From: Lachnospiraceae bacterium
GTDB taxonomy: Bacteria; Bacillota; Clostridia; Lachnospirales; Lachnospiraceae
NCBI GenBank assembly: GCA_017532145.1
Contig: JAFXJR010000123.1
Span: forward strand, 1 to 37,959
Reading direction: 5' to 3'
Length of the DNA: 37,959 nt
Position numbers and translations under genes: made by a program. The notes under the pieces were generated by a model. That model was not told the DNA's origin and did no database searches. It was given only the letters and a program-made list of their open reading frames with translations. This document shows positions 3,068 to 37,959 of this stretch, in pieces; position 1 is the first letter of the stretch; each line of letters opens with the position of its first letter.

Positions 3068-3197
3068 GTAATTAAATAGGAGGAAGACTTGCTGATAAGA
3101 GAGTAAGATAATGTAGAAGGGTAAAATGCTATGGTCAGGCGGACAGGGAATGTCTGCTTTGGCAGATACTTTCAAAAGAAAAGGAGTGTGGTGTACG

Positions 3198-5417
3198 ATG
3201 AAAAAAAGAAGCTTAATCTTACTAGGATTGATGGCACTGCTGGGAACCTTATCCTCAGGAGCAGACAGGGTACAGGCAGCAGAAGCAATGGAGGCAGGAA
3301 GCCTGCAGGTTAAAGCCATAGAAGCTAAGGCTTTAGAGGCAAAAGAGACAGAAGCTTTTCCTGCAGCTGCTACTCCGGAGGTAAAGATAGATGAGGTAAA
3401 TTTTCCTGATGCTATCTTTCGCCAGATTATTCTGGATGATTTTGATGAGGATATGAGTCAGACACTGTCAGAAGATGAATTGTCATCTACTTTTATTCGT
3501 CTGGAGTATAAGGGAATTAGCAGCCTGAAGGGAATCGAATATTTTACCAATCTGAATACTCTGTTTTGTGAGGGAAATAAGCTGACAGAGTTGGATATCA
3601 GCAAAAATTTAGCGTTACAGGTTTTGCGTTGTCAGGACAACCAGTTAAAGAGTCTGGATATTAGTAAAAATGTAGCACTGAAAGATTTAGACTGTTGGAA
3701 TAATCAGCTGACGAAGCTGGATATCAGTAAGAATGTGAATCTGGAGGGATTAAGCTGTGCTTCTAATCCCATAACTGCGCTGGATACCAGCAAGAATACG
3801 AAGTTGGAGCACTTAAGCTGTTGGAATATGCAGTTGACCTCCCTGAATGTAACCAAGAATCTTGCTCTTACCGGACTGGACTGCAGTAGTAATCAGCTAA
3901 CTACTCTGGATGTCAGCAAGAACACAGCATTAGGAGTGTTGTATTGTAGCGATAATCAACTGGAAACCTTAATTTTGGGAAAGAATACCGGTCTCGGTGA
4001 GTTGAATTGTGCTACTAATAAGCTGGAAAAGTTGGATGTAAGCCAGTTGTCAGCATTGGATATGCTGGAATGTTATGAAAATAAATTAAAACAACTGGAT
4101 GTTAGCAAAAATCTGAATTTGATGGAGTTAAATTGTTTTGATAATTCCATAAAAGAACTGGATATTAGCAAAAATCTGAATTTGGTGAAGTTAAATTGTT
4201 TTGATAATTCCATAAAAGAACTGAATATTAGTAAGAATACAAAGCTGGAATTTGTAAACTGTTGGAATAATCAGCTGACTTCCTTGGATGTCAGTCAAAA
4301 TCCTTCGCTCATCGGACTGGCTTGTGACGAAAATCAGCTGGAGAGTCTTGTAGTGGGGAAAAATCCCAATATGATTGAGTTACATTGTGGGGAAAATTGG
4401 CTGAAAACTCTGGATGTAAGAGGATTACCGGCCTTGGAGCAACTGACCTGTGGAAGCAACAGATTAGAGGAACTGGATCTTAGTCAGAATACCCAGCTGA
4501 GTATTCTATCCTGTCTGAAAAATAAGATAAAGAAATTGGATTTATCCCAAAATACAGCTTTGATTAGTTTAGAATGTGATGAAAATTCATTGGCAGCCTT
4601 ACATTTGGATTCGCTGACTTTGTTGGAAGATTATCCGGAGGAAGATAGTTTTGTCATTTTTGGGGATAGTCAGATGGATATGGCAGCTTATGATAATAGC
4701 TTTGATCCTGCCAGAGTTTCTAATCTGAAGGGATTGAAGCTGGAAGGCAGTCGACTAATTCTGGATAGAGCAAGTGCCGGAAGATATACCTATAACTGTG
4801 GAAATGGAAAGACATTGAATGTAACTGTACAAAAGATTGGCAAGGAATACACAATCAGTGACGTGGAGGTTAAGCCGGGAAACTGGAAGTATGATAGTGT
4901 GAAATATGTGAATGACAGAGAGATTATGGGAGCAGTAGGCGGCAGTAATCAGTTCCAGCCGGATAATCAGCTTACCCGTGCTATGTTTGCTACAGTACTC
5001 TACCGTATGGCAGGAGAGCCTTATGTACAATACCGTCAGATGTTTACCGATGTGGAAGAGGGAAAATGGTATACCAGAGCCATCCTTTGGGCCAGTGAAA
5101 AGGGTATTGTCAATGGCTATAATGATGGCAGCTATGGAATCAACGATAATATTACCCGAGAACAGATTGCCAAGATGCTCTATCTGTATGGAGAAAGCCA
5201 AAGCTATAAGGTGGATGGCAGAGCCGATCTGGATAACTTTACTGATAAGGACAAGGTAAGCAGCTGGGCAGTAGACTATATCCGCTGGGCAGTGGGAGCC
5301 AAGATGATTGGTGGTAAGCCTAATGGTGATGGCTCTTATCGTCTGGATCCTAAAGGACAGGCTACGAGGGCAGAGTGTGCTAAGATGCTGATGATGTTCT
5401 TAGAAAGGTATGAGTAA
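3198..5417 (+). CDS. secreted leucine-rich-repeat protein with C-terminal SLH anchor
   Basis: A 739-residue surface protein. A signal peptide (MKKRSLILLGLMALLG... ending near VQAA) leads into an Ala/Glu/Lys-rich stretch. Then come 17 consecutive 21-residue leucine-rich repeats of the form L..L.C..N.L..LDISKN (about residues 115-475). The C-terminal 190 residues hold three S-layer homology domains (FQPDNQLTRAMFATVLYRMAG, FTDVEEGKWYTRAILWA, NITREQIAKML, YRLDPKGQATRAECAKML). SLH domains bind secondary cell-wall polymer. The LRR part is probably a binding module; the ligand is unknown. Most repeats carry a cysteine at a fixed position. The ATG at 3198 follows AAGGAG and begins the signal peptide; longer starts in the frame lack a signal peptide. 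Monocistronic, with a terminator at 5514. The SLH block is closely related to that of the GH84 protein at 12291. Confidence 0.9.
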   Translation: MKKRSLILLGLMALLGTLSSGADRVQAAEAMEAGSLQVKAIEAKALEAKETEAFPAAATPEVKIDEVNFPDAIFRQIILDDFDEDMSQTLSEDELSSTFIRLEYKGISSLKGIEYFTNLNTLFCEGNKLTELDISKNLALQVLRCQDNQLKSLDISKNVALKDLDCWNNQLTKLDISKNVNLEGLSCASNPITALDTSKNTKLEHLSCWNMQLTSLNVTKNLALTGLDCSSNQLTTLDVSKNTALGVLYCSDNQLETLILGKNTGLGELNCATNKLEKLDVSQLSALDMLECYENKLKQLDVSKNLNLMELNCFDNSIKELDISKNLNLVKLNCFDNSIKELNISKNTKLEFVNCWNNQLTSLDVSQNPSLIGLACDENQLESLVVGKNPNMIELHCGENWLKTLDVRGLPALEQLTCGSNRLEELDLSQNTQLSILSCLKNKIKKLDLSQNTALISLECDENSLAALHLDSLTLLEDYPEEDSFVIFGDSQMDMAAYDNSFDPARVSNLKGLKLEGSRLILDRASAGRYTYNCGNGKTLNVTVQKIGKEYTISDVEVKPGNWKYDSVKYVNDREIMGAVGGSNQFQPDNQLTRAMFATVLYRMAGEPYVQYRQMFTDVEEGKWYTRAILWASEKGIVNGYNDGSYGINDNITREQIAKMLYLYGESQSYKVDGRADLDNFTDKDKVSSWAVDYIRWAVGAKMIGGKPNGDGSYRLDPKGQATRAECAKMLMMFLERYE
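4111..4236 (+). repeat. 63-bp tandem duplication inside the LRR array
   Basis: Two adjacent 63-bp units (4111-4173 and 4174-4236) differ at five positions by eye and share a continuous 35-bp identical core. Each encodes one 21-residue repeat (LNLMELNCFDNSIKELDISKN-type). The other repeats in the array are far more diverged at DNA level, so this looks like a recent in-frame unit duplication. Confidence 0.85.
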
Positions 5418-5584: not shown

Positions 5585-5899
5585 TCAATATAATGTAAAT
5601 TCATGGTATTGTGTTTCTCTACAAGTTATATAGCTTCTCATTTCTCCTTTGCTTTGGCAGGTTGCCGGGGCAGTTACTTTCCATTCTCCATAGGTGTGAG
5701 AAGTCAGAACGGGAATCGTTTCCTTCTGTATAGTCAATTCCCCTTTGCTGTGTGTAAGCAATAGCAGTGTATTGGAAAAAGCGGTATCCGATATTTCAGC
5801 GTTTTTGTATACAGTGACAGTATCCATACCCAAAGGAACAAACAGCAGAGAGGTTTTGTCTGCCTTGTAAAGTGTTTTATGTATTTTTCCAAGATATTT
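5585..5899 (-). pseudogene. remnant of a BspA-like LRR surface protein, in frame directly after plsC
   Basis: Directly after the plsC stop codon, in the same frame, the minus strand is open for 104 codons. The text includes KTLYKADKTSLLFVPLGMDT, then VTVYKNAEISDTAFSN, which reads like a BspA-type (LRR_5) repeat: a link to a cell-surface protein. It is followed by HTYGEWKVTAPATCQSKGEM, the start of the small Trp/Cys repeat common at the ends of Lachnospiraceae surface proteins. There is no credible start codon with a ribosome binding site, no signal peptide, and the repeats break off. I read it as the 3' leftover of a deleted surface-protein gene. An alternative is a readthrough extension of PlsC, which I consider unlikely. 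Confidence 0.6.
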
Positions 5900-6634
5900 T
5901 CACACCAATTCCCGATTTTTTTCATAGACTTCTTCAATCTTTTTTTGTACATAGGCTCCTACAAACTTTCTTTCCTCCTTGGACAGTTCCTTTAGATTAA
6001 TAGGAGGCAGATATTCCAGAACGACATGGGCTTTTTTTATTTTGGGAAGGTGATCTTCAAAAATACCAGCAGAATTGTTGATACAGATAGGAAGTACAGG
6101 ACATCCCGACTTTTCTGCAATCTTAAAGCTGCCCTCATGGAAGGGCAGGAAGGTATCACTTACCTTGTTGCGGGTTCCTTCCGGGAAGATACAGATAGAA
6201 ATCCCTGATTTTACCTTTTCGATTCCCTCCAGAATCGTTTTCATTCCCTGTTTAATATCGTTACGGTCCAGAAAAAGGCAATGAAGATTTCTCATCCAGT
6301 TTACCAGCAGAGGATAACGAAGCATCTCCTTTTTAGCAATATAACCAGTAGGTCTTGGCACTCTGGTGTAGGTAAGAAGGATGTCGAAAAAGCTTCTATG
6401 GTTTGCCACATACAGGACAGCCTTATCTTGAGGGACATTTTCTTCTCCAATTACTGTTACGGTAACACCGGAGATATGCAGACAGACTCGAAAAGCCCAG
6501 TTGACGATGGCAAGAGAGCTTCTGTTTTTTAACTCCATATTGTATTTTCCTATGATCCACTCTGCAATAAGCAGAGGGATACTAAAGATTAAAAATGAAA
6601 TGACAAAAATAACGGTGAGAATAAAACGTATCAT
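5900..6634 (-). CDS. plsC: 1-acyl-sn-glycerol-3-phosphate acyltransferase
   Basis: Second acylation of phosphatidic acid synthesis: transfers an acyl chain to lysophosphatidic acid at the membrane. The 244 residues begin with a hydrophobic segment (about 4-28). They carry the acyltransferase motif I NHRSFFD at residues 78-84 (His79 and Asp84 catalytic pair), a motif II region near FLDRND, and motif III FPEGTRNK at 150-157. The ATG has AGGAAGG upstream on the minus strand. A matching promoter lies at 6701-6729. The stop codon is followed in frame by the remnant at 5585-5899, so its original downstream sequence has probably been rearranged. Confidence 0.92.
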   Translation of the reverse strand: MIRFILTVIFVISFLIFSIPLLIAEWIIGKYNMELKNRSSLAIVNWAFRVCLHISGVTVTVIGEENVPQDKAVLYVANHRSFFDILLTYTRVPRPTGYIAKKEMLRYPLLVNWMRNLHCLFLDRNDIKQGMKTILEGIEKVKSGISICIFPEGTRNKVSDTFLPFHEGSFKIAEKSGCPVLPICINNSAGIFEDHLPKIKKAHVVLEYLPPINLKELSKEERKFVGAYVQKKIEEVYEKNRELV

Positions 6635-6700
6635 GGCTATATCCTTCCTAATGGTATAGTAAGCAGCCTGCAGTTTTGCATTTTACCTGCTGTTACAATA

Positions 6701-6729
6701 ATTATAGCGAAGAAGTACCAGTAAGGCAA
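6701..6729 (-). promoter_or_regulatory. SigA promoter for plsC
   Basis: On the minus strand, TTGCCT (6729-6724) and a perfect TATAAT (6706-6701) are separated by 17 bp, about 70 bp before the plsC start. Fit to the housekeeping consensus is good. Confidence 0.6.
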
Positions 6730-6848
6730 TCTTTTTATAGAGCAGCAAGCAAAAGCAACTTACCTTATATACCTGGGATAAATAGGTATAAGTTAAGCTG
6801 TTCTCTTAATAGACTAGGCAAAAGAGGAATGATTCAGGGAGTATGGGA

Positions 6849-7280
6849 ATGAAAAAAAAGGCAAAAGGATTGGTTATACTGGCGATGGTGGCACTGCTTA
6901 GTCTGGCAGGCTGCAGCATAAAGACGCAGGAAAGGGATGAAAAGCTGAAGGATATGGAGTTTACTGTGTTAGGGGAGGGAGACATTCCTCAGGAACTGCG
7001 GGAGCTTGTGGAGGAGAGGAAGGAAGAGGAGTTTAAACTCACCTATCAGGATGGAGACTTTCTCTATATATGTATAGGCTATGGCAGGCAGGAGACAGGG
7101 GGCTACAGCATTACGGTAAGCGGGATGTATCTAACGGCCAATGCCATCTATGTGGATACCAATCTGATAGGACCTGAGCCAGGAGAAAAGAAGCTCTATG
7201 GAGTCAGGGAAGAGGGGGCATCCTACCCTTATGTAGTATTGAGGACAGAATATTTGGAAAAGCCGGTAGTTTTTGATTGA
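6849..7280 (+). CDS. lipoprotein with PrcB C-terminal-like domain
   Basis: A 143-residue exported lipoprotein: a basic start (MKKKAKG), a hydrophobic core and the lipobox LSLAGC. The mature part has a charged linker and then a domain reading GRQETGGYSITVSGMY ... ANAIYVDTN ... PGEKK ... YPYVVLR. This matches the pattern of the PrcB C-terminal family (GGY-I-I, a glycine/proline turn, YPYV), named after a protease-complex accessory protein of spirochaetes. Its molecular role here is unknown; binding a partner at the outer face of the membrane is plausible. An ATG at 6843 lies too close to AGGGAG (6836-6841); the ATG at 6849 is 7 nt from it and is preferred. It ends inside the likely pyr promoter. 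Confidence 0.7.
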   Translation: MKKKAKGLVILAMVALLSLAGCSIKTQERDEKLKDMEFTVLGEGDIPQELRELVEERKEEEFKLTYQDGDFLYICIGYGRQETGGYSITVSGMYLTANAIYVDTNLIGPEPGEKKLYGVREEGASYPYVVLRTEYLEKPVVFD

Positions 7281-7306
7281 TTGTTTCCGGGCAAATAGGA
7301 TATACT
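7277..7306 (+). promoter_or_regulatory. candidate promoter of pyrC-pyrK-pyrD
   Basis: TTGATT (7277-7282) and TATACT (7301-7306) are spaced by 18 bp, and the -35 overlaps the stop codon of the PrcB lipoprotein. The leader before pyrC would be under 50 nt. That is too short for a PyrR-type attenuator, and none is visible. Confidence 0.45.
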
Positions 7307-12203: not shown

Positions 12204-12271
12204 AAAACCGGATGCATATAAAAAATACAAAACCGCAGTACTGCTGAGATGTATTTTGTGCATCCGGTTTT
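12204..12271 (+). promoter_or_regulatory. long inverted repeat in the leader of the GH84 gene
   Basis: AAAACCGGATGCA (12204-12216) is the perfect complement of TGCATCCGGTTTT (12259-12271). Inside it AAAATAC (12222-12228) pairs with GTATTTT (12251-12257), and the apex carries the palindrome GCAGTACTGC (12235-12244). The right arm ends a few bases before the AGGAAGGAGAGG ribosome binding site of the GH84 gene. A folded leader or a repressor operator are both possible. It is not a riboswitch class I recognise. The flanking 12021-12203 is very AT-rich and presumably contains the promoter. Confidence 0.6.
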
Positions 12272-12290
12272 CTCAGGAAGGAGAGGTATA

Positions 12291-15200
12291 ATGAAGAAAA
12301 AAAGAATGGCTGTTACAGCCATGGCAGCTGTGGCTACAGCAGGAACTCTGCTGTCTCTGCCCTTGCAAACGGCAGCTACAGAAAGAACCTATGAGTTGTA
12401 TCCAATACCGCAGTCGATTCAGTATCAGACTGGCAGTTATATGCTAAGTGATGAAGTCAATGTGGTGTATGAGAGCGGTATTGATCAGGAAACGAAGAAC
12501 AGGCTGGCAGAGGCGGCTCGGTTAAGTGGGATAACACTTAGTCCAACCTCAGATGTGGTGGACAACAAGACGAATATTTTGGTAGGAATCAAGGGGGATG
12601 AGGCTGATACTAAGGTAGATGAGTATGCAGAGACTCGGCTGACAGTAACTAATGAGGAACTGTTTAACAAGACAGACAGCTATGTTATGGAAAGTGATAA
12701 CAATGTAATTACTGTCTTGGCCAAGGATGCAGATGCTGCTTTTTATGGGATGACCACCCTGTATCATATTATGGACCAGATAGAGGACAAGAGTATCCGT
12801 AACTTCCAGATTGAAGACTATGCAGATATTGTAAGCCGTGGTTTTATTGAGGGATATTATGGTAATCCCTGGTCTACAGAGGATAGAATCAAGCTGATGG
12901 AGTGGGGCGGCTATTATAAGCTGAATTCCTATTTCTATGCACCAAAAAATGACCCTAAGCATAATTCCCAGTGGAGAGTTAAGTATACGGATCAGGAGAT
13001 TGAGGAGCTGATTAAGCCGCTGGCGGAGGCAGGAAATCGCTCTAAATGTCGCTTTGTCTATGCCCTCCATCCTTATATGTATAATGCTATCCGTCATAAT
13101 ACGGAGGAAAACTATCAGGAAGATTTGGCAATCATGCAGGCTAAATTTGACCAGGTAATCGAAGCTGGTGTACGTCAGATTTCCATTCTGGCAGATGATG
13201 CTGCCAATGTGGGAGGGGCTAACTATACCCGGATGTTGACGGATATGACTAACTGGATTAAAGAAAAGCAGAAAAAGTATCCTGATTTAAAACTGACACT
13301 GCCTTTCGTTACCCAGGAGTATATGTATAATGGTGAAAGCTACTACAGAGATTTCCCTGCAAATGTACAGATTGTTATGACCGGTGGAAGAATCTGGGGA
13401 GAAGTAAGTCAGAACTTTACGACTACCTTTACCACCAATGCAGGCCGTGGCCCTTATCTGTGGATTAACTGGCCCTGTACAGATAACTCGAAAAAGCATT
13501 TGATTATGGGTGGATACTCTAATTTCCTGCATCCCAATGTGGATCCGGCAAAGGTAGAGGGTATCGTGCTTAATCCCATGCAGCAGTCTGAACCCAGTAA
13601 GGTGGCTATCTTTGGAAATGCAGCTTATTCCTGGAATATCTGGGAATCAGAGGAGGTAGCAAATCAGGCATGGAAGGATTCCTTTAAATATGTGGATGGA
13701 AATTCAGCTGCAGAAACTGAGGCTTCCACTGCGTTAAGAGAGCTTTCCAAGCATATGATTAATCAGGCGATGGACGGCAGAGTAGTAGCTTTACAGGAGT
13801 CCGTAGAATTAAAGGAACTACTGACACCTTTTAAGGACAAGCTGTCTAATAATGCAGAAATTACTGAGGCAGAAATTGATGCCATTAAGGCAGAGTTTGA
13901 AAAGCTGCAGCAGGCGGCAGTTACCTATCGTGAGAAAGCAAACGATACCAGAATAAAGGATCAGATTGTCTACTGGCTTGACTGCTGGGATGATACCACA
14001 GAGGCTGCTTTGGCATACCTGGAGGGTGTCAGAGATGTTTTGACAGAAGATAAATCCGGTTTAGTAGACAATTACATAAGGGGAGAGGCTGCCTTTACCG
14101 CATCCAAGGATCATCCCCTGTGGTATCTGGATCATTATGAGTATGCGGAAGTAGGTGTACAGCATATTGTACCTTTTATTAAAGCAATGGATACCTACTT
14201 AAGCAAAAAGGCATTGGAGGCAGTAGACCCTTCTGCTGTTACTTATACTTACATCAGTAATGAATATACTACTCCTTACAGTGGCAGTCCGGAGGATGTG
14301 TTGGATGGAGACGACAGTACTGCTATGGTGTTCCATGAACCCAATTATGTTACGACAGGACAGTATATTGGGTTGCAGTTTAGTGCTCCCATTACGCTGA
14401 ATAATGTACGTTTTGCTTTAGGTGGTGGAAAGAATCACTTCTATTATTCCAAGCTGGAGTATCAGACTGCAGACAGTGAGGAATGGAAGGCAGTAAGTGA
14501 TCAAATCTATGAAAGACCTCAAAATAGTGAGGAGCCGATTATTGCAACAGAGCTTGGTCTGGAAAATGTAGTAGCCGTTCGTTTGCTTGCTACCCAGAAC
14601 AACAACATAGACAGTTGGCTGAATATTAAATCCATCGACATCAATAAGGAAGTGGAGCCTGCACCAGCAGACCCGCTGACAGCAGCTACCACAACCAACA
14701 GCTCCAATGTAGCTGTAGCCAGTGGTAATGTAGGTAATGTAACAGATGGTAATTTATCTACTGAACTGTGGTTAAAGAGTGCATCAGGAGACTTTATACC
14801 GGCAGATGCAGCAGTAACTGTGGACCTGGGAGAGGCTAAGGCTATTGGCTCTGTATATGTTGCTCAGGATACCGCCAGAGCCAATGGAAGAGATATTTTA
14901 AGTAAAGGTGTGGTAGAGTACAGTCTGGACAATAATACCTGGTATACCCTGGGTGCTTTGGCAGAAGAAAATGAGCAAACTATTTTAGGTGGTGCTACGG
15001 CAAGATATGTTCGTGTGAGAAATACCGAGCAAAAGAATGTATGGTGGAGACTCAGTGAGATTCAGGTGTTTTCAGCAGAGGACAGTCCTCTGTCCATGGC
15101 AGTGTCACTGATTGATTTAAGGGTTGGAAATCATAATAGTATTAATGATGCGAGCAAGAATAACAAGCCGGAATACATTGTCGATGGAGATATGACTACT

Positions 15201-18200
15201 CTGGCATGGCTGGCAGGCTCTGACAATGGAAATATTCCTGCAGGCGGCGGTGTGGAAATTACGCTGAGTAAGGAAACCGAACTGACAGGAATTAATATTG
15301 TACAGGCAGATGGCAGTGGAGACAAGGTAGCCAACCTGACAGCAAGCTATCAGGACAGCGAAGGAAGCTGGCATGAGCTTGGTGTGAAGACGAATGCTGG
15401 TGACAATACTGTGTTCAGTTTTAGTGCAGTAAAGGCAAAAGCTATTCGTCTGGTAAACAGTGGAAGTGCTACTAATGCCTGGTGGAAGCTATATGAGGTA
15501 AGTTTAATTCAGGCTTCTCAGAGTAAGGAAGGTATTGTGTATACTAATTCAGTAAATGCAAGTACCTTTGGAGGTAGTGTAAATAGTACTGGTGCAGTAC
15601 TTTCCTCCGGAATGATTACTTTAGCACCAGGAGAATATATTGGTTTGGATGTACAAAATATCCAGACAATAGAGACTTTATCGGTAGCAGGAGAGGGTAT
15701 TGCTGCTGCGAAACTGGAGATTTCCAGCAATGGTATGCAGTGGGAAAGCATAGAAAATACGGATGCTGCTGCCCAAAAGGCTGTTCGGTATGTGCGTCTG
15801 TACAATGCAGGTACAGAGGATTTAGCCTTGAATATTGAGGCATTTTCCCTTACCTTCTATACGATTGGACAGTTAGGTGAACTGATTTCTTCTAATATTC
15901 CAGTGACAGCAAGCTGGGGAGACGATAGAAACAATCTGAAGGCTTTTGATGGAGATATGACTACCTATCAGAAATTTGGCGGAAATCCTCAGGCAGGTAA
16001 TACAGCAGTCTACAGTCTGGGACAGGAGATAGATGTTGAGTCAATCAGAGTCTATACCACAGACGGTACTCAGGATTATATCAGAGATGCCAAGATACAG
16101 CTTTCCATGGATGGAGAGACCTGGGAGGACGCTCTGACGATTGGTGACGGTACTACCGATACAGAGCCAACTTCTACAATGGGAAGCGGAGCCTTAGGCG
16201 AAAGTGATTCCAACTATCCGAATGTACGTTATTATGGACAGGATGGCATCAATAAAAAGGCCAGGTTTATGCGGTTGTATATTACGGCTAATTTCCCCGG
16301 TCGTGCTATTATTATCAATGAAATTGTCATCAATGATGGTGCTTATATTTCTGAGGAGTCTAATGCCGCTTTCTCCGGAACACTGGAAGCAGAAGGATAT
16401 AAGCCCAGCAATATGCTGGATAAGAATCTGTCTACCAGTTATAAGGCATCCCAGGCAAATGGAAGCCTGACCTATGCAGTAAGTGAAGCCGGTGTTCTTT
16501 CCTTCCGTATGATACAGAGCGGTGAGATAACCGGAGCAGCAATAAAGGCTAAAGTATTGGATACAAACAATACAGAAGATACAGTAGAGGTAGGTACTCT
16601 GGCAGACAATATTAACGATTTCCAGGTACCGGAAGGAAAAGAGCTGGCAGCAATCGTTATTGAATGGCAGGAAAAAATTCCTGCGATTGCAGAATTAATT
16701 CTGATTAAGGATGAACAGAAGCCGACAGCACCTTCTGCAGCAGCTGCAACAGAGGTAACAGCAAATAGTGCTAAGCTGACATGGACAGCGGCTACAGATA
16801 ATGGAAGAATAGGAAAATATGAAATTTATCAGGAATCCAGTCTGATAGCCATTGTAGATGGCAGTGCGACAGAGACAGTATTAAAGAATCTGGATGCAGA
16901 GACAGCCTATACACTGGAGGTTTATGCTTACGACTCGGCAGGTAACTGCTCTGAAAGCTGTCAGGTAAGCTTTACCACCTTGAAAGAGGATAGCTCAGGA
17001 GGTGGCGAAGGTGGCGATGAAGGCGGAGACGAAGGAAATGACAACGAAGCTGTCGAAGAATATAAGCAGCAGCTGACCGCTTTGATTGCAGAGGCAAAAG
17101 AAAAGATTGCTTCTGACAAGTATACAGAGACTACTGTAACCGCTTTACAGGCAGAGGTAACTAAGGCAGAAAATCTGATGAAGGAGGCTGCCCCTACAGC
17201 AGCAGCTTTGCAGCAGTCAGTTACCGATTTGGATAATACGCTGAAGGCTTTGGAAGAAAAGAAAAATGATAGCCCGGATAGTACAGATGATACAACAGCA
17301 GAGAAGCAGCAGCTGACGGCTTTGATTGGTCAGGCAAAGGAAAAGATTGCGTCCGGTAAGTATACAGAAGCTACCGTAAAAGCTCTGCAGGCTGAGGTAA
17401 CCAGGGCAGAGAATCTGTTAAAGCAGACAGCGCCTACAGCAGCAGCTTTGCAGCAGTCTATTACTGCGATGAACAATGCGATAAAAGCTTTAGCAGAAAA
17501 AACAGACGATGGTTCAGCAGCATATAAGAAGCAATTGACTACGCTGATTGGTCAGGCAAAGGAAAAGATTGCGTCTAAAAAGTATACAGAGGCTACCGTA
17601 ACCAAGCTGCAGGCAGAAGTAGCCAAGGCAGAGGCCCTATTAAAGGAAGCTGCTCCTACAGCAGCTAAGCTGCAGCAGTCGGTAAACAGTCTGAATACCG
17701 CAGTAAAAGCGTTGGTAGAAAAGGCAGAGACAGTAGAAAAGAAGTGGATTTTCACTGATGTAAAGGTGACTACAGGCAACTGGAAATATGAAAGTGTAAA
17801 ATATGTATACAATAAGGATGTTATGGGTGCTGTAACCGGAACGACAGAGTTCCAGCCAGATCGTCCGCTGAATAGAGCGATGTTTGCTACTGTACTGTAT
17901 CGTATGGCAGGAGAGCCAAAGGTAACCTTTGAAAATAAATTTACGGATGTGGTAGCCGGAAAATGGTATAGTAATGCTATTCTTTGGGCTTATCAGAATA
18001 AGATTGTATCTGGCTTCAGTGATGGAAGCTATGGTATTGAGGCAAATATTACCCGTGAACAGATTGCTAAGATGCTGAATGAGTATGCAAAGCTCTGCAA
18101 GTATGATATTAGTCAAAAGAATGCTCTAAATGAATTTACAGATGCAGCCAGTGTAAGCAACTGGGCGGTAGAGTATATGCAGTGGGCAACAGCAGTAAAG

Positions 18201-18317
18201 ATGATTTCCGGTAAGCCAAATGGAGATGGAAGCTTCCGCCTGGATCCTAAGGGTGAAGCAACCAGAGCAGAATGTGCAGCAATGTTGCAGCGTTTTGCCA
18301 ATAAATATATTCCATAA
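12291..18317 (+). CDS. S-layer-anchored GH84 beta-N-acetylglucosaminidase
   Basis: A 2008-residue exported glycosidase. After a signal peptide (cleavage near QTAATE) comes a GH20b/GH84-type N-terminal domain (YPIPQSIQYQTG). The GH84 catalytic barrel spans about 182-460: SRGFIEGYYGNPWS, FYAPKNDP, and the paired catalytic aspartates Asp302-Asp303 in ILADDAANVG, as in Clostridium perfringens NagJ. A helical region follows. Four F5/8-type C (CBM32-like) modules lie near 650-787, 797-928, 942-1075 and 1202-1351. Then come a fibronectin III domain (about 1480-1567), a Gly/Asp/Glu linker, three FIVAR repeats and three SLH domains. The enzyme should release terminal beta-GlcNAc, for example from mucin O-glycans, while tethered to the wall. 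The ATG at 12291 follows AGGAAGGAGAGG; an upstream in-frame ATG lies in the leader hairpin and has no ribosome binding site. It stands alone with a strong terminator. Confidence 0.93.
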   Translation: MKKKRMAVTAMAAVATAGTLLSLPLQTAATERTYELYPIPQSIQYQTGSYMLSDEVNVVYESGIDQETKNRLAEAARLSGITLSPTSDVVDNKTNILVGIKGDEADTKVDEYAETRLTVTNEELFNKTDSYVMESDNNVITVLAKDADAAFYGMTTLYHIMDQIEDKSIRNFQIEDYADIVSRGFIEGYYGNPWSTEDRIKLMEWGGYYKLNSYFYAPKNDPKHNSQWRVKYTDQEIEELIKPLAEAGNRSKCRFVYALHPYMYNAIRHNTEENYQEDLAIMQAKFDQVIEAGVRQISILADDAANVGGANYTRMLTDMTNWIKEKQKKYPDLKLTLPFVTQEYMYNGESYYRDFPANVQIVMTGGRIWGEVSQNFTTTFTTNAGRGPYLWINWPCTDNSKKHLIMGGYSNFLHPNVDPAKVEGIVLNPMQQSEPSKVAIFGNAAYSWNIWESEEVANQAWKDSFKYVDGNSAAETEASTALRELSKHMINQAMDGRVVALQESVELKELLTPFKDKLSNNAEITEAEIDAIKAEFEKLQQAAVTYREKANDTRIKDQIVYWLDCWDDTTEAALAYLEGVRDVLTEDKSGLVDNYIRGEAAFTASKDHPLWYLDHYEYAEVGVQHIVPFIKAMDTYLSKKALEAVDPSAVTYTYISNEYTTPYSGSPEDVLDGDDSTAMVFHEPNYVTTGQYIGLQFSAPITLNNVRFALGGGKNHFYYSKLEYQTADSEEWKAVSDQIYERPQNSEEPIIATELGLENVVAVRLLATQNNNIDSWLNIKSIDINKEVEPAPADPLTAATTTNSSNVAVASGNVGNVTDGNLSTELWLKSASGDFIPADAAVTVDLGEAKAIGSVYVAQDTARANGRDILSKGVVEYSLDNNTWYTLGALAEENEQTILGGATARYVRVRNTEQKNVWWRLSEIQVFSAEDSPLSMAVSLIDLRVGNHNSINDASKNNKPEYIVDGDMTTLAWLAGSDNGNIPAGGGVEITLSKETELTGINIVQADGSGDKVANLTASYQDSEGSWHELGVKTNAGDNTVFSFSAVKAKAIRLVNSGSATNAWWKLYEVSLIQASQSKEGIVYTNSVNASTFGGSVNSTGAVLSSGMITLAPGEYIGLDVQNIQTIETLSVAGEGIAAAKLEISSNGMQWESIENTDAAAQKAVRYVRLYNAGTEDLALNIEAFSLTFYTIGQLGELISSNIPVTASWGDDRNNLKAFDGDMTTYQKFGGNPQAGNTAVYSLGQEIDVESIRVYTTDGTQDYIRDAKIQLSMDGETWEDALTIGDGTTDTEPTSTMGSGALGESDSNYPNVRYYGQDGINKKARFMRLYITANFPGRAIIINEIVINDGAYISEESNAAFSGTLEAEGYKPSNMLDKNLSTSYKASQANGSLTYAVSEAGVLSFRMIQSGEITGAAIKAKVLDTNNTEDTVEVGTLADNINDFQVPEGKELAAIVIEWQEKIPAIAELILIKDEQKPTAPSAAAATEVTANSAKLTWTAATDNGRIGKYEIYQESSLIAIVDGSATETVLKNLDAETAYTLEVYAYDSAGNCSESCQVSFTTLKEDSSGGGEGGDEGGDEGNDNEAVEEYKQQLTALIAEAKEKIASDKYTETTVTALQAEVTKAENLMKEAAPTAAALQQSVTDLDNTLKALEEKKNDSPDSTDDTTAEKQQLTALIGQAKEKIASGKYTEATVKALQAEVTRAENLLKQTAPTAAALQQSITAMNNAIKALAEKTDDGSAAYKKQLTTLIGQAKEKIASKKYTEATVTKLQAEVAKAEALLKEAAPTAAKLQQSVNSLNTAVKALVEKAETVEKKWIFTDVKVTTGNWKYESVKYVYNKDVMGAVTGTTEFQPDRPLNRAMFATVLYRMAGEPKVTFENKFTDVVAGKWYSNAILWAYQNKIVSGFSDGSYGIEANITREQIAKMLNEYAKLCKYDISQKNALNEFTDAASVSNWAVEYMQWATAVKMISGKPNGDGSFRLDPKGEATRAECAAMLQRFANKYIP
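17062..17730 (+). repeat. three tandem FIVAR-coding repeats
   Basis: Three copies of about 220 bp encode the FIVAR units (QLTALI.QAKEKIAS.KYTEATV.. LQAEV..AE.LL...APTAA.LQQS). Copies two and three share a 30-bp identical block at 17324 and 17546, 222 bp apart. FIVAR modules serve as spacers or sugar-binding units in wall proteins. Homogenisation between copies is likely. Confidence 0.85.
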
Positions 18318-33320: not shown

Positions 33321-33443
33321 GATGTTGTGGTCAAAAGTACCTATTTTCATGCAAGCAAGAAAACAGATGACCTTTTGACTCTAGCATCATATGATAAGAA
33401 AACAGGGGTGTTAGCAGCTGGAAGGAAAGGAGTAAAGGACAAG

Positions 33444-34985
33444 ATGGAAAGAGAGAAAATCTTGGTGCTGGATTTTGGCGGTCAGTATAATCAGTTGATT
33501 GCAAGGAGGGTCAGGGAGTGTAATGTCTATTGTGAGGTACATCCCTATAGTCTGAAGCCTGATGAGTTGAAAGAAATGAAGCCAAAGGGAATTATTTTTA
33601 CAGGCGGCCCCAATAGTGTCTATGCAGAAAATTCTCCTCTATGCGATAAGGCAGTCTTTGAGCTGGGTATTCCCATATTAGGGATTTGCTATGGCTCTCA
33701 GCTTATGGCACATTTGGGAGGCGGCAGGGTAGCTACGGCTCCGGTCAGTGAATATGGAAAAACAGAAGTAGAAGTGGATAACAGCAGAAAATTGTTTGAG
33801 GGAGTGGGAAAAAAGACAATCTGTTGGATGAGCCATACTGACTATATTGCACAGGCACCGGAAGGCTATACCATTACAGCATCAACTCCGGTTTGTCCAG
33901 TGGCTGCTATGGAAAATGTGGAAAAAAATCTATATGCAGTACAATTTCATCCGGAAGTAGTACACACTCAAGAAGGGACCAGAATGCTGCAAAACTTTGT
34001 GTGTAATATCTGTGGATGCAAGGGTGACTGGCAGATGGATTCCTTTATTGAGACAAGTATAGCAGCAATTCGTGAAAAGATAGGTAAGGGGAGAGCGCTC
34101 TGTGGATTATCAGGAGGTGTGGACTCTTCTGTGGCAGCGGCTCTGCTGTCCAAGGCTATCGGCAAGCAGCTAATCTGTGTCTTTGTGGATACCGGTCTTC
34201 TGCGTAAGGGAGAAGGAGACGAGGTAGAGGCAATCTTTGGTTCAGGAGGAATGTATGACCTGAATTTTATCCGTGTAAATGCACAGGAACGCTTTTTTCA
34301 CCAACTGGCAGGAGTAGAAGACCCAGAAGAAAAACGGAAGATTATTGGAGCGGAATTTGCCTATGTGTTTGAAGAAGAAGCAAAAAAGATTGGGGCTGTA
34401 GACTATCTGGTACAGGGAACAATCTATCCAGATGTAATTGAAAGTGGTTCAGGAGAAAGTGCAGTGATTAAGCTGCATCACAATGTAGGGGGTCTGCCGG
34501 AGAAGGTGGACTTTAAAGAGGTAATAGAACCGCTGCGCTTTCTGTTTAAGGATGAGGTAAGGAAGGTAGGACTGGAATTGGGGATTCCTGAGTATCTGGT
34601 ATACAGACAGCCTTTTCCGGGTCCGGGATTGGGCGTTCGTATTGTAGGAGAAGTAACAGCCGATAAGGTTCGTATCGTTCAGGAGGCAGATGCAATTTAT
34701 CGGGAAGAAATCAGTAAGGCGGGACTGGATAGACAGCTGGGACAGTATTTTGCAGCATTGACTAATATGCGTTCCGTAGGCGTGATGGGGGATGAGAGAA
34801 CCTATGATTATGCAGTGGCTCTGCGGGCGGTTACTACTACTGATTTTATGACAGCAGAAACGGCAGAGTTGCCTTGGGAGCTGTTGGGGAAGGTGACAAG
34901 CCGGATTGTGAATGAGGTGAAAGGTGTCAACCGGGTGTTGTATGACTGTACGGGGAAGCCGCCGGGGACGATTGAGTTTGAATAA
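33444..34985 (+). CDS. guaA: GMP synthase (glutamine-hydrolysing)
   Basis: Converts XMP to GMP with ATP and glutamine, last step of guanine nucleotide synthesis. The 513 residues match the usual length. Class I glutaminase: [29 protein letters not shown], Cys82 in GICYGSQLM, and the His-Glu pair in QFHPEV. PP-loop synthetase: [14 protein letters not shown] near 221-234. C-terminal dimer domain: [14 protein letters not shown] to [12 protein letters not shown]. The frame is open to 33291, but that stretch contains the promoter; AAAGGAG lies 11 nt before the ATG at 33444. The last ~130 bases look more G/C-ending in codon choice than the rest of the gene (by eye). Confidence 0.96.
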
Positions 34986-34992
34986 TACAAAT

Positions 34993-35040
34993 GAGCCAAG
35001 AAATGCCGAATTTACGGCGTTTCTTGGCTCTTGTTTTTTT
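34993..35040 (+). terminator. strong terminator of guaA
   Basis: GAGCCAAGAAATGCCG (34993-35008) pairs with CGGCGTTTCTTGGCTC (35015-35030), with one G-T pair and a 6-nt loop, followed by TTGTTTTTTT. It marks the boundary with the accessory segment. Confidence 0.92.
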
Positions 35041-35087: not shown

Positions 35088-35777
35088 CTAATTTGAAGAC
35101 GAAGAATCTTCTTTGGCATAAAAGAGTTTGATTTGTCTTAAATCATAAATCAGTTCACCATACTTATTGTAATCACGGTATAAAATATCTTTCACAATAG
35201 GTGTAAGTGAAAAAATAAGTGAGAAAATAAGTAAAACAATTGCTATTATTTGAGCTACCATAATAATCATTTCATTTTGAGATGTTGAATCCCCAATTTT
35301 TTCAGCAACGTATACTACAATCGGGATGATTATTGCGGCGAGCGTTTTTAGTGGTTTTTTTAGAGGTGCTAAATAATCACATTGAATTTGTGCAATTTTA
35401 GCTTCTTTTATTAACAGATCAATTGACTCAAAATCGTGAATGTTAATTTGGTAATTGTTTAATACATCGATGGTCATTTGCATCCTTTTTTCAGAATAAG
35501 GGCTATAGTGTTCATTAAGCATTACTTTAAGATTTTTTTTCAAGGAATCAATTATAAAGAAAATAAACATTGAAATGATTCCTAGTATTAATGGAATATA
35601 TGAAGCCCAAGTTTGTTTAAACATTAGTAGAATGCTACTAATAATTGCACTGGCAAAAAGAATAATTACAAATATTTTTCTATATAGTGGAAGCTTGGTA
35701 AAGGGAATAGTACTCTTGATATCCTTTAGCCCAATTTTATAGCTAATAAATAAATCACAAAATCTCATATGTATCAT
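35088..35777 (-). CDS. four-helix membrane protein of unknown function
   Basis: A 229-residue protein with two pairs of hydrophobic helices (about 35-53, 57-77, 143-161, 169-192), separated by a charged 65-residue loop (LKKNLKVMLNEHYSPYSEKR, IKEAKIAQIQCDYLAPLKK). The C-terminal tail is charged (RDYNKYGELIYDLRQIKLFY) and ends in serines. No family is recognised. The layout resembles small membrane proteins found in defence and toxin neighbourhoods, but that is only an impression. AAAGGA lies close upstream of the chosen ATG (35777); a second ATG at 35768 is possible. It is 77 bp after the gene at 35855, so it may be the last gene of that operon. Confidence 0.65.
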   Translation of the reverse strand: MIHMRFCDLFISYKIGLKDIKSTIPFTKLPLYRKIFVIILFASAIISSILLMFKQTWASYIPLILGIISMFIFFIIDSLKKNLKVMLNEHYSPYSEKRMQMTIDVLNNYQINIHDFESIDLLIKEAKIAQIQCDYLAPLKKPLKTLAAIIIPIVVYVAEKIGDSTSQNEMIIMVAQIIAIVLLIFSLIFSLTPIVKDILYRDYNKYGELIYDLRQIKLFYAKEDSSSSN

Positions 35778-35854
35778 AGTCCTTTCTTGATTAGTAGTAT
35801 ATCTGCGTTTTATGTTAGTTGCAAATGATTTTACGGTGAGAATTAATCTCAAAA

Positions 35855-36403
35855 TCAATTAATAAGATTTCCATCATAATCTATCTCATAGTAATTATCT
35901 TCAAAGTCATAGCATATGGAGTTATCCCGTAATTCAAAGGGCTTCTTGTTTGATAATGAAACAAAAATATCTTTTCCGGAGAAAGCCCACTTTTTGATAA
36001 AGTCAAAGTCCAGCATCGTAATTTCGATTTCTCCATAGATGATGTATCCGTTTTTAACTTTATATATTCCATAGTTACAGCCAAAGCAATCAAACTTAAT
36101 ATGTTTTGTTATGGAGCCGTCAAAGATATTGATTATAGTTATGGTATCATTTTGTAAAACTGTAAGTGTATCATTTTCAAGGACGGCACAATCGAAATCA
36201 TATGTATAGAATGAGCCTATAAGTGCAATGCTGTATTCTTTTGAAAAAAGGTCTACATGTATAGCTAGAGTTTTTGCAATATCACTTTGCTTATATTGGC
36301 AGGGATTGTGGATAATATCGTAGTAACGATTGTCTGTCGAATCGACGGTAAAGGTTTCGTCTATGCTAATTTTAATAATGCAGTTACTATTTTCTAAAAT
36401 CAT
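35855..36403 (-). CDS. hypothetical protein in the immunity cluster, beta-rich
   Basis: A 182-residue soluble protein without a signal peptide. The sequence is rich in short beta-type strands with recurring aromatic and Asp/Asn turns: NTFDGSI-like loops (INIFDGSITKHIKFDCFGCN), YGIYKVKNGYIIYGEIEITM, LDFDFIKKWAFSGKDIFVSL and a C-terminal YEIDYDGNLIN. This suggests a beta-propeller-like or blade fragment. No family is recognised. GGAGGAC lies 5 nt before the ATG at 36403, favouring it over earlier in-frame ATGs. It starts 18 bp after the barstar gene, so it is probably another immunity-type gene of the same operon. Confidence 0.65.
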   Translation of the reverse strand: MILENSNCIIKISIDETFTVDSTDNRYYDIIHNPCQYKQSDIAKTLAIHVDLFSKEYSIALIGSFYTYDFDCAVLENDTLTVLQNDTITIINIFDGSITKHIKFDCFGCNYGIYKVKNGYIIYGEIEITMLDFDFIKKWAFSGKDIFVSLSNKKPFELRDNSICYDFEDNYYEIDYDGNLIN

Positions 36404-36421
36404 AAGTCCTCCGGATACCAT

Positions 36422-37024
36422 TTAAAAAGCGTGCTCATCATACAGTTCTAAATATTTGTTGTTACTTTCATGGTTTTTTATAATGGATATAATTTTATTG
36501 AAATATTTGTTACCTAATGCTTGTCTGCTTTTCTCGGCATAAATCCAAACGATATGAAGCGGTGCTTCATATTCATGAATGCCAAAACCACCCCAAAGCA
36601 AGTCATTAAAAGCATTCAGATTACGTCCTGTTTTAAAGTCAATCTTATATGTCAATTTTTGCTCTATTTGGTCAAAAAAATCATTAAGTGTTTGGATATC
36701 GCGTCCGTCAATAAATATCCATTTTTCGTCATTTGCATCAAGGATAGGATTTACTATTTCGGTAACTTTGAAAGTACCCATTACTTTTGAACCCTCATAT
36801 ATATCCAAACACTTATCAAGCCATAATGAATTTGCACAATACTTTGGAGAAATAAAAGCGATGGAGGCTGGAATAGATTCGTCCAAAGAAATTGGATTAT
36901 CAAAGTTAAGGACACAGCTTGTCCAATAGTTTTCTTTAATTATTGTGGTAGGACGAATGTCTGGAAAAAAAGGAGTTGTTCTACCGGTATTTGTTAATAT
37001 TCCTTTTGCATCTATATTAAGCAT
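36422..37024 (-). CDS. barstar-family immunity protein with an extra N-terminal domain
   Basis: A 200-residue protein. Residues about 101-185 fit the barstar (barnase inhibitor) family: WIFIDGRDIQTLNDFFDQI, then the hallmark GRNLNAFNDLLWGGFG at 133-148, and the closing strand PLHIVWIYAEKSRQAL. Barstar family proteins bind and block small secreted ribonucleases. The first ~100 residues form a separate domain (ILTNTGRTTPFFPDIRPTTI, ASIAFISPKY, LDIYEGSKVMGTFKVTEIVN), possibly an EF-Tu-like beta-barrel seen with other immunity proteins; this part is uncertain. No ribonuclease gene is in the window. A start at 37024 is supported by AAAGGCGAGA; a longer frame to 37117 would overlap the upstream gene. 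It sits 14 bp after the WapI-type gene. Confidence 0.75.
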   Translation of the reverse strand: MLNIDAKGILTNTGRTTPFFPDIRPTTIIKENYWTSCVLNFDNPISLDESIPASIAFISPKYCANSLWLDKCLDIYEGSKVMGTFKVTEIVNPILDANDEKWIFIDGRDIQTLNDFFDQIEQKLTYKIDFKTGRNLNAFNDLLWGGFGIHEYEAPLHIVWIYAEKSRQALGNKYFNKIISIIKNHESNNKYLELYDEHAF

Positions 37025-37038
37025 ATTATCTCGCCTTT

Positions 37039-37494
37039 CTATTTGTCGTGCAATCCTTCCATACCACCATATTTCACTTTTAAGCTTTCGATATCTTGGA
37101 TAACACTCAATAAGCAAGATTGGTCAGTATCAAACTCGAATTGCAGTACATTTTGTTTATCCGGGCGTTCTTGGAAGGTTCCAGTTACAATAGCAAGTCC
37201 TCCACTTGTCATTTCAACATTAAAGACCAAACCATTTTCATACAAAGAATGATATTCTGCGGAACCAAAAAGAACTGTATAACAAGCATCAAGTTCTTTT
37301 GAAAAACGATAAAGAGTACCAGTGGCGGAGTAGAGTCGGTCAAATTCAATGTGATAGCATCCTGAGTCGATAACTAAGGTACAAATAATATCATAGCCGC
37401 CTTCAATGCTTGTGTTATTGGGAAAGCCAATAACTTCATTAAGTTCAAGACTGAGCTTTTCACCATTATATCCATTTAAGCAAAATATGTTCAT
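37039..37494 (-). CDS. WapI-type immunity protein
   Basis: A 151-residue soluble protein. The text resembles the WapI immunity family that protects Bacillus from the WapA tRNase toxins: LSLELNEVIGFPNNTSIEGG (about 14-33), YDIICTLVIDSGCYHIEFD, a LYRFSKELDACY helix, GTFQERPDKQNVLQFEFDTD and a closing IQDIESLKVKYGG. I recognise the pattern but cannot run a search. The ATG at 37494 has GGAG 9 nt upstream; an ATG at 37509 directly abuts the stop of the preceding gene and is less likely. Spacing of 14-15 bp to both neighbours shows one operon. Confidence 0.6.
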   Translation of the reverse strand: MNIFCLNGYNGEKLSLELNEVIGFPNNTSIEGGYDIICTLVIDSGCYHIEFDRLYSATGTLYRFSKELDACYTVLFGSAEYHSLYENGLVFNVEMTSGGLAIVTGTFQERPDKQNVLQFEFDTDQSCLLSVIQDIESLKVKYGGMEGLHDK

Positions 37495-37509
37495 AAAGCA
37501 ACACTCCAT

Positions 37510-37959
37510 TTAGTCTTTCTTCGGCTTCCTCTTCCTCTTCACATAAGAGAAATCCGGAAACAAGTCTTTTAACAATTCAGCAGTTTCTTCTGCGGCTTCA
37601 TCCTCATTCGCATTCTGAACCATTAGCTGGTCATCGTCATCAAGATTCAACGAAAATGTATATTCTTTATCCGGTTCGACCGGATTCATCGGGAATTTAA
37701 TCTCTTTAAGATAGTATTCCGATTCTGTTATTTCGCCATCTTCCAATCTATCTCGTAAGCGTGCCCAATACTCAATCATCTTTCGGAAGTTATCAAGGTC
37801 TTCTTGAGGACAGGGACCGGTGCTTGAAAGTCTTTCTTCAAATTTGAAAGTCAATTCCCCATTTTTCATAGTAGGGCGTAGTCCGTATGCCCACTCAATA
37901 TCAAACAGCACATGAAGTGCGCTGAATATGTTTGCAACGTCAGGATCAGATAACGCATA
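37510..37959 (-). CDS. C-terminal part of an unrecognised protein (5' end outside window)
   Basis: The frame is open from the right edge for 149 codons. Visible text: DPDVANIFSALHVLFDIEWA, YGLRPTMKNGELTFKFEERL, a charged helix FRKMIEYWARLRDRLEDGEI, PMNPVEPDKEYTFSLNLDDD, an acidic run ANEDEAAEETAELLKDLFPD and a basic end KRKRKPKKD. No family is recognised. A GTG at 37911 could serve as an internal start but has no ribosome binding site, so it is treated as partial. It directly precedes two immunity-type genes, so it might be part of the toxin, its adaptor, or another immunity protein. Confidence 0.6.
   Translation of the reverse strand, partial: YALSDPDVANIFSALHVLFDIEWAYGLRPTMKNGELTFKFEERLSSTGPCPQEDLDNFRKMIEYWARLRDRLEDGEITESEYYLKEIKFPMNPVEPDKEYTFSLNLDDDDQLMVQNANEDEAAEETAELLKDLFPDFSYVKRKRKPKKD

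Follow-up and report, generated by a model that had tools for sequence, protein, structure and literature searches.

Putative orphan immunity cassette in the cargo slot of a probable guaA-inserted integrative mobilizable element from a Lachnospiraceae bacterium

Loci with several unrelated immunity genes in tandem and no toxin, sometimes beside recombinases, were described in 2012 as polyimmunity loci, and polyimmunity fusion proteins were reported in the same work (Zhang et al., PMC3482391). In Bacteroidales, recombinase-associated acquired interbacterial defence (rAID) is known, and its orphan immunity genes protect their host (PMC12247911). Streptococcal integrative mobilizable elements (IMEs) with Tyr_3 integrases target guaA (PMC5357655). 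Here we describe a cluster of five genes at the right end of a 37,959-nucleotide stretch from a Lachnospiraceae bacterium (GenBank assembly GCA_017532145.1, contig JAFXJR010000123.1), hereafter the window. The window is the entire contig (G000:C99; genomes G, contigs C and loci L carry our own numbers) of a source genome with 134 contigs and 87% completeness, so its right end is also the contig end. The cluster is probably the cargo module of an IME that a tyrosine integrase placed in the 3' end of guaA. This cargo reads as an orphan-immunity cassette of mixed families, similar to acquired interbacterial defence (AID) but carried by Lachnospiraceae-type elements, and it would presumably protect the host.

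Like several of the heterogeneous polyimmunity loci in PMC3482391, which have tandem unrelated immunity genes without a toxin gene and lie beside a recombinase, the window has two recognised immunity families and one candidate, and no toxin was recognised in its visible part. It also has a fusion protein, and that work describes polyimmunity fusions. But the locus is small and is bounded by a regulator and an IME attachment (att) site, and the fusion of barstar with an EF-Tu-like half is not among the combinations given in the passages of that paper on such proteins. A trait in common with AID and rAID of gut Bacteroidales is that orphan immunity genes sit on DNA that is mobile or associated with recombinases (PMC12247911), whereas here the vehicle would be a guaA-targeting IME of Lachnospiraceae, the families are WapI and barstar, and the slot carries phage-defence-type cargo in other copies. 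The likeness to the streptococcal IMEs lies in the tyrosine integrase and the integration in guaA, and the host family differs; the main text of PMC5357655 uses none of the words "cargo", "defense" and "immunity". Searches of open-licence literature listed no study of guaA elements in Lachnospiraceae that carry orphan immunity genes. The components are known, and what would be new is their combination, orphan immunity cargo in a guaA-element slot that elsewhere holds phage-defence-type genes.

The element end at guaA and the regulator

The window contains the following features of the element.

33441-34985, plus strand: guaA (GMP synthase), the integration target, whose last codons are retained by the att core; a guaA-type gene lies beyond the element end in relatives
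34974-34985, plus strand: 12-bp att core GAGTTTGAATAA, equal to Glu-Phe-Glu-stop of guaA, with copies at both element ends in relatives
34993-35030, no strand: stem-loop at the element end, GAGCCAAGAAATGCC...TTTCTTGGCTC, then GTGACAATCAAATGACAATAATTTT; same end in relatives
35088-35777, minus strand: 229-amino-acid (aa) protein with four hydrophobic segments (256 aa from an upstream TTG), with relatives in the same slot
35855-36403, minus strand: 182-aa candidate immunity protein without hydrophobic segments (188 aa from an upstream ATG), with relatives in L095 and L091
36422-37024, minus strand: 200-aa fusion, aa 1-100 resembling EF-Tu domain III and about aa 103-185 barstar (PF01337, E 2.8e-10)
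37039-37494, minus strand: 151-aa WapI-like immunity protein (PF24716, E 1.9e-14)
37510-37959, minus strand: gene 5, C-terminal 149 residues of an XRE/HTH_3 regulator, truncated at the contig end, identified by kinship with element regulators

Behind guaA, the DNA of the window and of genome G023 is near-identical, although their guaA proteins are 70% identical, and the near-identical stretch consists of the 12-bp core, the stem-loop and an AT-rich tail. The core stands at both element ends in G023 (contig C24, positions 12492 and 24045) and in G244, which gives elements of 11,554 bp and 14,272 bp, respectively. Because a second exact copy lies at the far end in these two genomes, the window should show the guaA-side end of an IME; short direct repeats at both ends together with an integrase are present in G023 and G244, and one end only is visible in the window. 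In G244 the same element end begins with GAGTTTGAATAA, and no guaA was found nearby.

Gene 5, which had been counted as part of an immunity cluster in a first-pass annotation, is not immunity-like but the C-terminus of a regulator. It shares 82% identity with a G023 protein of 228 aa (L020:10516-11199) that has an HTH_3 domain (E 1.3e-12). A species-genome collection was scanned with a profile of five regulators, which yielded 19 loci. Their hosts were 10 genomes labelled "Lachnospiraceae bacterium", 5 of Agathobacter, Roseburia (2), Lachnospira or Eubacterium, 2 of Clostridia or Eubacteriales, 1 of Oscillospiraceae and 1 of Lactobacillus rogosae. Identity to gene 5 was 78-95% over 146-149 residues in 17 of the 19, while L105 was aligned over 51 residues and L106 was not aligned in frame. 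Some stretches bear two numbers and were counted once (L020 = L088, L054 = L098, L055 = L104, L056 = L103). Once L053 (in G244) and the window are added, the set comprises 21 elements; the slot is readable in 20, with L093 left out as its contig ends there. A guaA-type gene lies just past the element end in 11 of the 19 loci (six full-length with 68-77% identity to guaA of the window, five of a shorter type with 49-52%), and the end stem-loop is present in L020, L053, L054 and L055 and in 17 of the 19 loci overall. We read the cluster as filling the slot between the regulator and att of an IME. Viral contigs contained six loci 29-45% identical to the regulator, which were not used further.

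At 15 of 20 loci (L053 and the 19 above) an integrase sequence lies upstream of the regulator, in divergent orientation. It is fragmentary in L093, L103 and L104, cut by the contig edge in several others, and contained in the short upstream parts of L095 and L100; L090 and L097 (2 of the 20) stop at the contig edge. In G023 the regulator stands back to back with a tyrosine integrase, which is followed by a NikA-like gene, a TnpV gene and a Mob_Pre/MobV-type relaxase, with guaA on the other side of the regulator. The 8 kb upstream of the regulator in L091 hold an HTH excisionase-like gene, an integrase, a NikA-like gene, a Mob_Pre relaxase, a HARE-HTH gene, two DNA methylases and a 690-aa gene. 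This type of relaxase is thus present in L020 and L091, element length is 11.6-14.3 kb, and the lack of transfer genes is judged solely from lists of open reading frames (ORFs). Integrase, regulator and guaA also stand in this order where the regulator is a more distant relative (about 28-41% identity in the cases listed).

These data bear on the first-pass view, in which the cluster is where a polymorphic-toxin locus keeps its immunity genes and a large toxin gene of LXG, RHS or WapA type would lie past 37959, upstream on the minus strand. Two immunity families do stand side by side, and the window's own DNA past 37959 lies beyond the contig end; in L022, moreover, a fragment related to the N-terminal half of the fusion lies among gene pieces that by eye resemble toxin tips (one was scanned, with nothing above cut-off). 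But the gene at the contig end is a regulator, and next to its relatives a divergent integrase sequence is present at 15 of the 20 loci. L091, with the same cassette, has no recognisable toxin in its 8 kb upstream by Pfam scan, the 690-aa gene being the one gene without a match; this locus is the nearest available substitute for the extension to the right that the first-pass annotation had proposed. We consider a toxin gene past 37959 highly improbable and did not keep this part of the annotation. The regulator and integrase context, the upstream region of L091 and the different cargo of other slots argue instead for an orphan-immunity cassette.

The cassette and its proteins

Genes were called by the longest-ORF rule, so short genes may escape. 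On the minus strand, the stop of gene 5 ends at 37510 and the WapI ATG is at 37494 (15-bp gap), the WapI stop is at 37039 and the barstar ATG at 37024 (14 bp), the fusion stop is at 36422 and the ATG of the 182-aa gene at 36403 (18 bp), and the stop of that gene is at 35855 and the ATG of the membrane gene at 35777 (77 bp). The five tightly spaced minus-strand genes of the first-pass annotation are therefore real, and so is their AT-richness, since the G+C of the four cargo genes is 0.283, 0.317, 0.323 and 0.364 (28-36%), compared with 0.409 in gene 5 and 0.434 (43%) in window positions 1-34985.

The annotation had also named one gene barstar-like and one WapI-like, and a hidden Markov model search for immunity families matched both, with 40.5 bits against a curated cut-off of 23.4 for PF01337 and 54.5 bits against 27 for PF24716, so two unrelated immunity types do adjoin, and the lack of any such match, which would have refuted the annotation, did not come about. 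The relatives of the fusion in L091, L095 and L100 match PF01337 too, and the fusion is intact in L095 and L100 (87.5% and 91.5% protein identity). The WapI relative in L091 is 82% identical (E 5.5e-14). In the window, WapI is flanked by the regulator and the barstar fusion, not by a WapA/RHS toxin, and it had no match among viral contigs. Barstar inhibits barnase-type RNases. B. subtilis delivers the tRNase WapA into other bacteria (PMC5566331). The two recognised genes thus share an RNase theme.

The N-terminal half of the fusion has a pattern, GRxTPFF...RP...EG, that is reminiscent of EF-Tu domain III. EF-Tu itself was not found above cut-off in the window's assembly, so domain III was taken from relatives. 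Alignment of the half with this domain by hhalign gave a probability of 76%, E 2.3e-5 and a score of 32.5, and 60 column shuffles as control gave at most 2.1% and a score of 17.0. With L136, a PF03143 protein (1.4e-15) that had been found by the N-half profile itself, the probability was 95.2%. The N-halves of the window, L095 and L100 had no Pfam match, PF03143 included, at E up to 10, and EF-Tu chains made up three of seven hits in a PDB profile search with a best E of only 0.29, so kinship with EF-Tu domain III is likely, not proved. A PDB sequence search with the fusion and with the 182/188-aa protein gave no match at E up to 10; the fusion had none in phages and the N-half none in viral contigs.

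The N-half profile matched 7 of 397 family genomes, counting that of the window. Relatives occur as stand-alone genes of 101-105 aa in L074, L080 and L078. The L074 gene lies in a row of small genes with Imm7 (E 4.9e-37), DUF6896 and CPCC, the L080 gene in a small-gene row of which two neighbours were scanned and neither matched, and the L078 gene among transporter-like genes; L082 has a longer related protein. Several tRNase toxins depend on EF-Tu of the target cell, and the NC101 immunity protein contacts EF-Tu domains 2 and 3 (PMC9086364). By analogy, we guess that the EF-Tu-like half might act as a decoy.

The 182/188-aa protein had no match in Pfam, NCBIfam or PADLOC or in plasmids, and its family had none in viral contigs. 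Its relatives in L095 and L091 are 92-95% identical, and its profile matched 6 of 392 family genomes, the window's included. A relative in G391 (L139/L144) is fused to DUF7674 and adjoins DUF4259, both of which we take to be families common near immunity genes, while the relatives in G028 and G139 (L143, L145) have neighbours that are ordinary or of no known family, so an immunity role is only likely. The first-pass annotation had suggested that both unrecognised genes could be new immunity families. For the 182/188-aa protein the G391 fusion and neighbour lend this weak support, but the protein with four hydrophobic segments would more likely be a separate, swappable module of the slot than immunity to the same toxins.

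Relatives of this membrane protein with 75-77% identity occupy the same slot in L091 (10284-11054), L053 (8605-9291) and L101 (9457-10146), and with the window (35088-35777) the family is found beside no fewer than three sets of partners that are unrelated to one another, namely DUF6414, a 243-aa protein and immunity genes. It belongs to no Pfam family above cut-off; matches to DUF6264, Pesticin and five others were all below cut-off and were discarded, as was an NCBIfam match to mob_CxxC_CxxC among the five window proteins (17.4 bits against a cut-off of 70).

Slot cargo in related elements

Versions of the cassette were found in three of the 19 related public loci (L091, L095 and L100), whose regulators are 83-95% identical to that of the window. 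The barstar fusion is present in 4 of the 20 readable slots (these three and the window); WapI accompanies it in the window, in L091 and, frame-disrupted, in L095, and the 182/188-aa gene occurs in the window, L091 and L095. DNA identity between the window and L091 was 99.1% for the 188-aa gene (424 bp), 91.6% for the barstar fusion, 85.3% for the regulator, 82.0% for WapI and 78.8%, the lowest of the five, for the membrane gene. The window regulator is closest in DNA to L100 (92.7%) and L104 (92.2%), and despite this their cargo is partly (L100) or wholly (L104) unlike that of the window. From this gene-by-gene spread of identities and the mismatch of regulator and cargo, cargo genes appear to move between element backbones, even singly.

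The other 16 of the 20 readable slots hold other cargo, some of it of defence families; only part of the proteins were run against both profile libraries.

L096: DarT fragment and NADAR-DarT1
L092: EcsC, also PDC-S29 (1e-80)
L102: protein kinase, best PADLOC models MADS and PD-T4-6 kinases
L103 (= L056): DUF4062, which we take to be linked to defence
L053, L097, L106: DUF6414, in part accompanied by a membrane protein (Pfam scan of L053 only)
L098 (= L054): 514-aa protein with AAA matches below cut-off
L088 (= L020), L090: 182-aa membrane protein, weakly PycTM-like
L099: exonuclease-like match below cut-off and a weakly SIR2-like neighbour
L089, L094, L101, L104, L105: proteins without match above cut-off

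No paper on DUF6414 was found in the open-licence literature.

Such cargo raises the question whether the cluster is itself an anti-phage or toxin-antitoxin module, with the membrane protein as effector and the barstar-like and WapI-like proteins as sensors or antitoxins. Several relatives' slots hold anti-phage-type cargo, the membrane protein has unrelated partners in L053 and L101, and the slots of L088, L092, L100 and L104 likewise end in a protein with hydrophobic segments. However, PADLOC gave no match at E up to 1 for the five window proteins, barstar is by name an inhibitor family and WapI an immunity family, and the presumed effector is the gene least conserved relative to L091 and had no match in L095 or L100. 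We regard such a module as unlikely.

Several results weigh against the cargo-module reading. The L089, L099 and L101 loci (3 of 20) have no match to the integrase though sequence is available. With the distant regulators, the space between regulator and guaA mostly lacks a sizeable gene, so the cargo slot would be a trait of the close relatives. The window's integrase was not found in its own assembly, where two matches on other contigs were at best 28% identical, so parts of the element may be missing, or may just not have been assembled. None of the four cargo proteins could be paired with a toxin. In L091 the barstar frame is disrupted near residue 167 and the 188-aa frame stops after 142 residues, and the WapI gene of L095 has a broken frame in its 5' part, which points either to decay of some copies or to errors in the assemblies. 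These frames, disrupted in two of the three cassette relatives, would also fit old immunity-gene fragments that hitchhike in the slot as non-functional debris, but the four cargo ORFs of the window are all open with short gaps, and the fusion is intact at high identity in L095 and L100, which makes debris very unlikely. In favour of the cargo-module reading, the sequence itself shows the element end with att core and stem-loop, a regulator bordering the slot and versions of the cassette in three other copies, one of them with complete integrase and relaxase.

In L099 and L101, regulator and cargo are kept without a neighbouring integrase, as if the slot had outlived decay of the element. In L089, a 466-aa ORF (5895-7295) that is transposase-like by eye sits at the expected place of the integrase, between an excisionase-like gene and the rest of the element. 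L023 and L024 (G015:C3, 285000-312000) have three integrase-regulator units in a row beside guaA, about 8-10 kb apart, so that related elements seem to have accumulated one behind the other at a single att site. In G336 (L060-L061), a more distant regulator relative is followed in one contig by a GmrSD-type restriction gene on the opposite strand, and in another contig a regulator relative is followed by CAP12/Pycsar TIR and DUF5677 genes, also on the opposite strand.

Six other ORFs of the window were scanned and none was a recognised toxin; they were a GH84-type surface enzyme, a leucine-rich-repeat/S-layer homology protein, a PLD-like protein, an acyltransferase and two without match. The first (12249-18317) is a 2,022-aa surface protein that combines a beta-N-acetylglucosaminidase domain (GH84-type) with fn3, an S-layer homology domain and several F5/8C domains; it may be an enzyme acting on mucin glycans, not a toxin. 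The second (3126-5417) is a 763-aa leucine-rich-repeat protein with S-layer homology domains.

Possible function and meaning

The cargo would be transcribed with the regulator as one short operon. The WapI-like protein, the EF-Tu-like/barstar fusion and perhaps the 182-aa protein would then act as orphan immunity proteins: when neighbouring bacteria deliver toxins with RNase or tRNase domains, they would bind these domains and block them, and the element would repay its carriage by protecting the host in contact competition. A wider proposal is that guaA IMEs of Lachnospiraceae have in general an interchangeable, regulator-bordered slot for anti-phage or anti-competitor genes, which would make them the Gram-positive equivalent of AID, and that with the EF-Tu-like half as decoy for translation-factor-dependent tRNase toxins one protein blocks two toxin classes; this is speculative, and we doubt that all of it holds.

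In gut Bacteroidales, which are attacked through the type VI secretion system, it is established that mobile DNA can carry orphan immunity genes. The Gram-positive Lachnospiraceae are not known for this system. A mobile element of this other great gut lineage that exchanges anti-phage and anti-competitor genes in one slot would mean that selection by neighbours and selection by phages act on the same vehicle. The interval from the regulator to the guaA att core would be a simple address for finding new protection genes, and the EF-Tu-like immunity domain would be directly testable against EF-Tu-dependent tRNase toxins.

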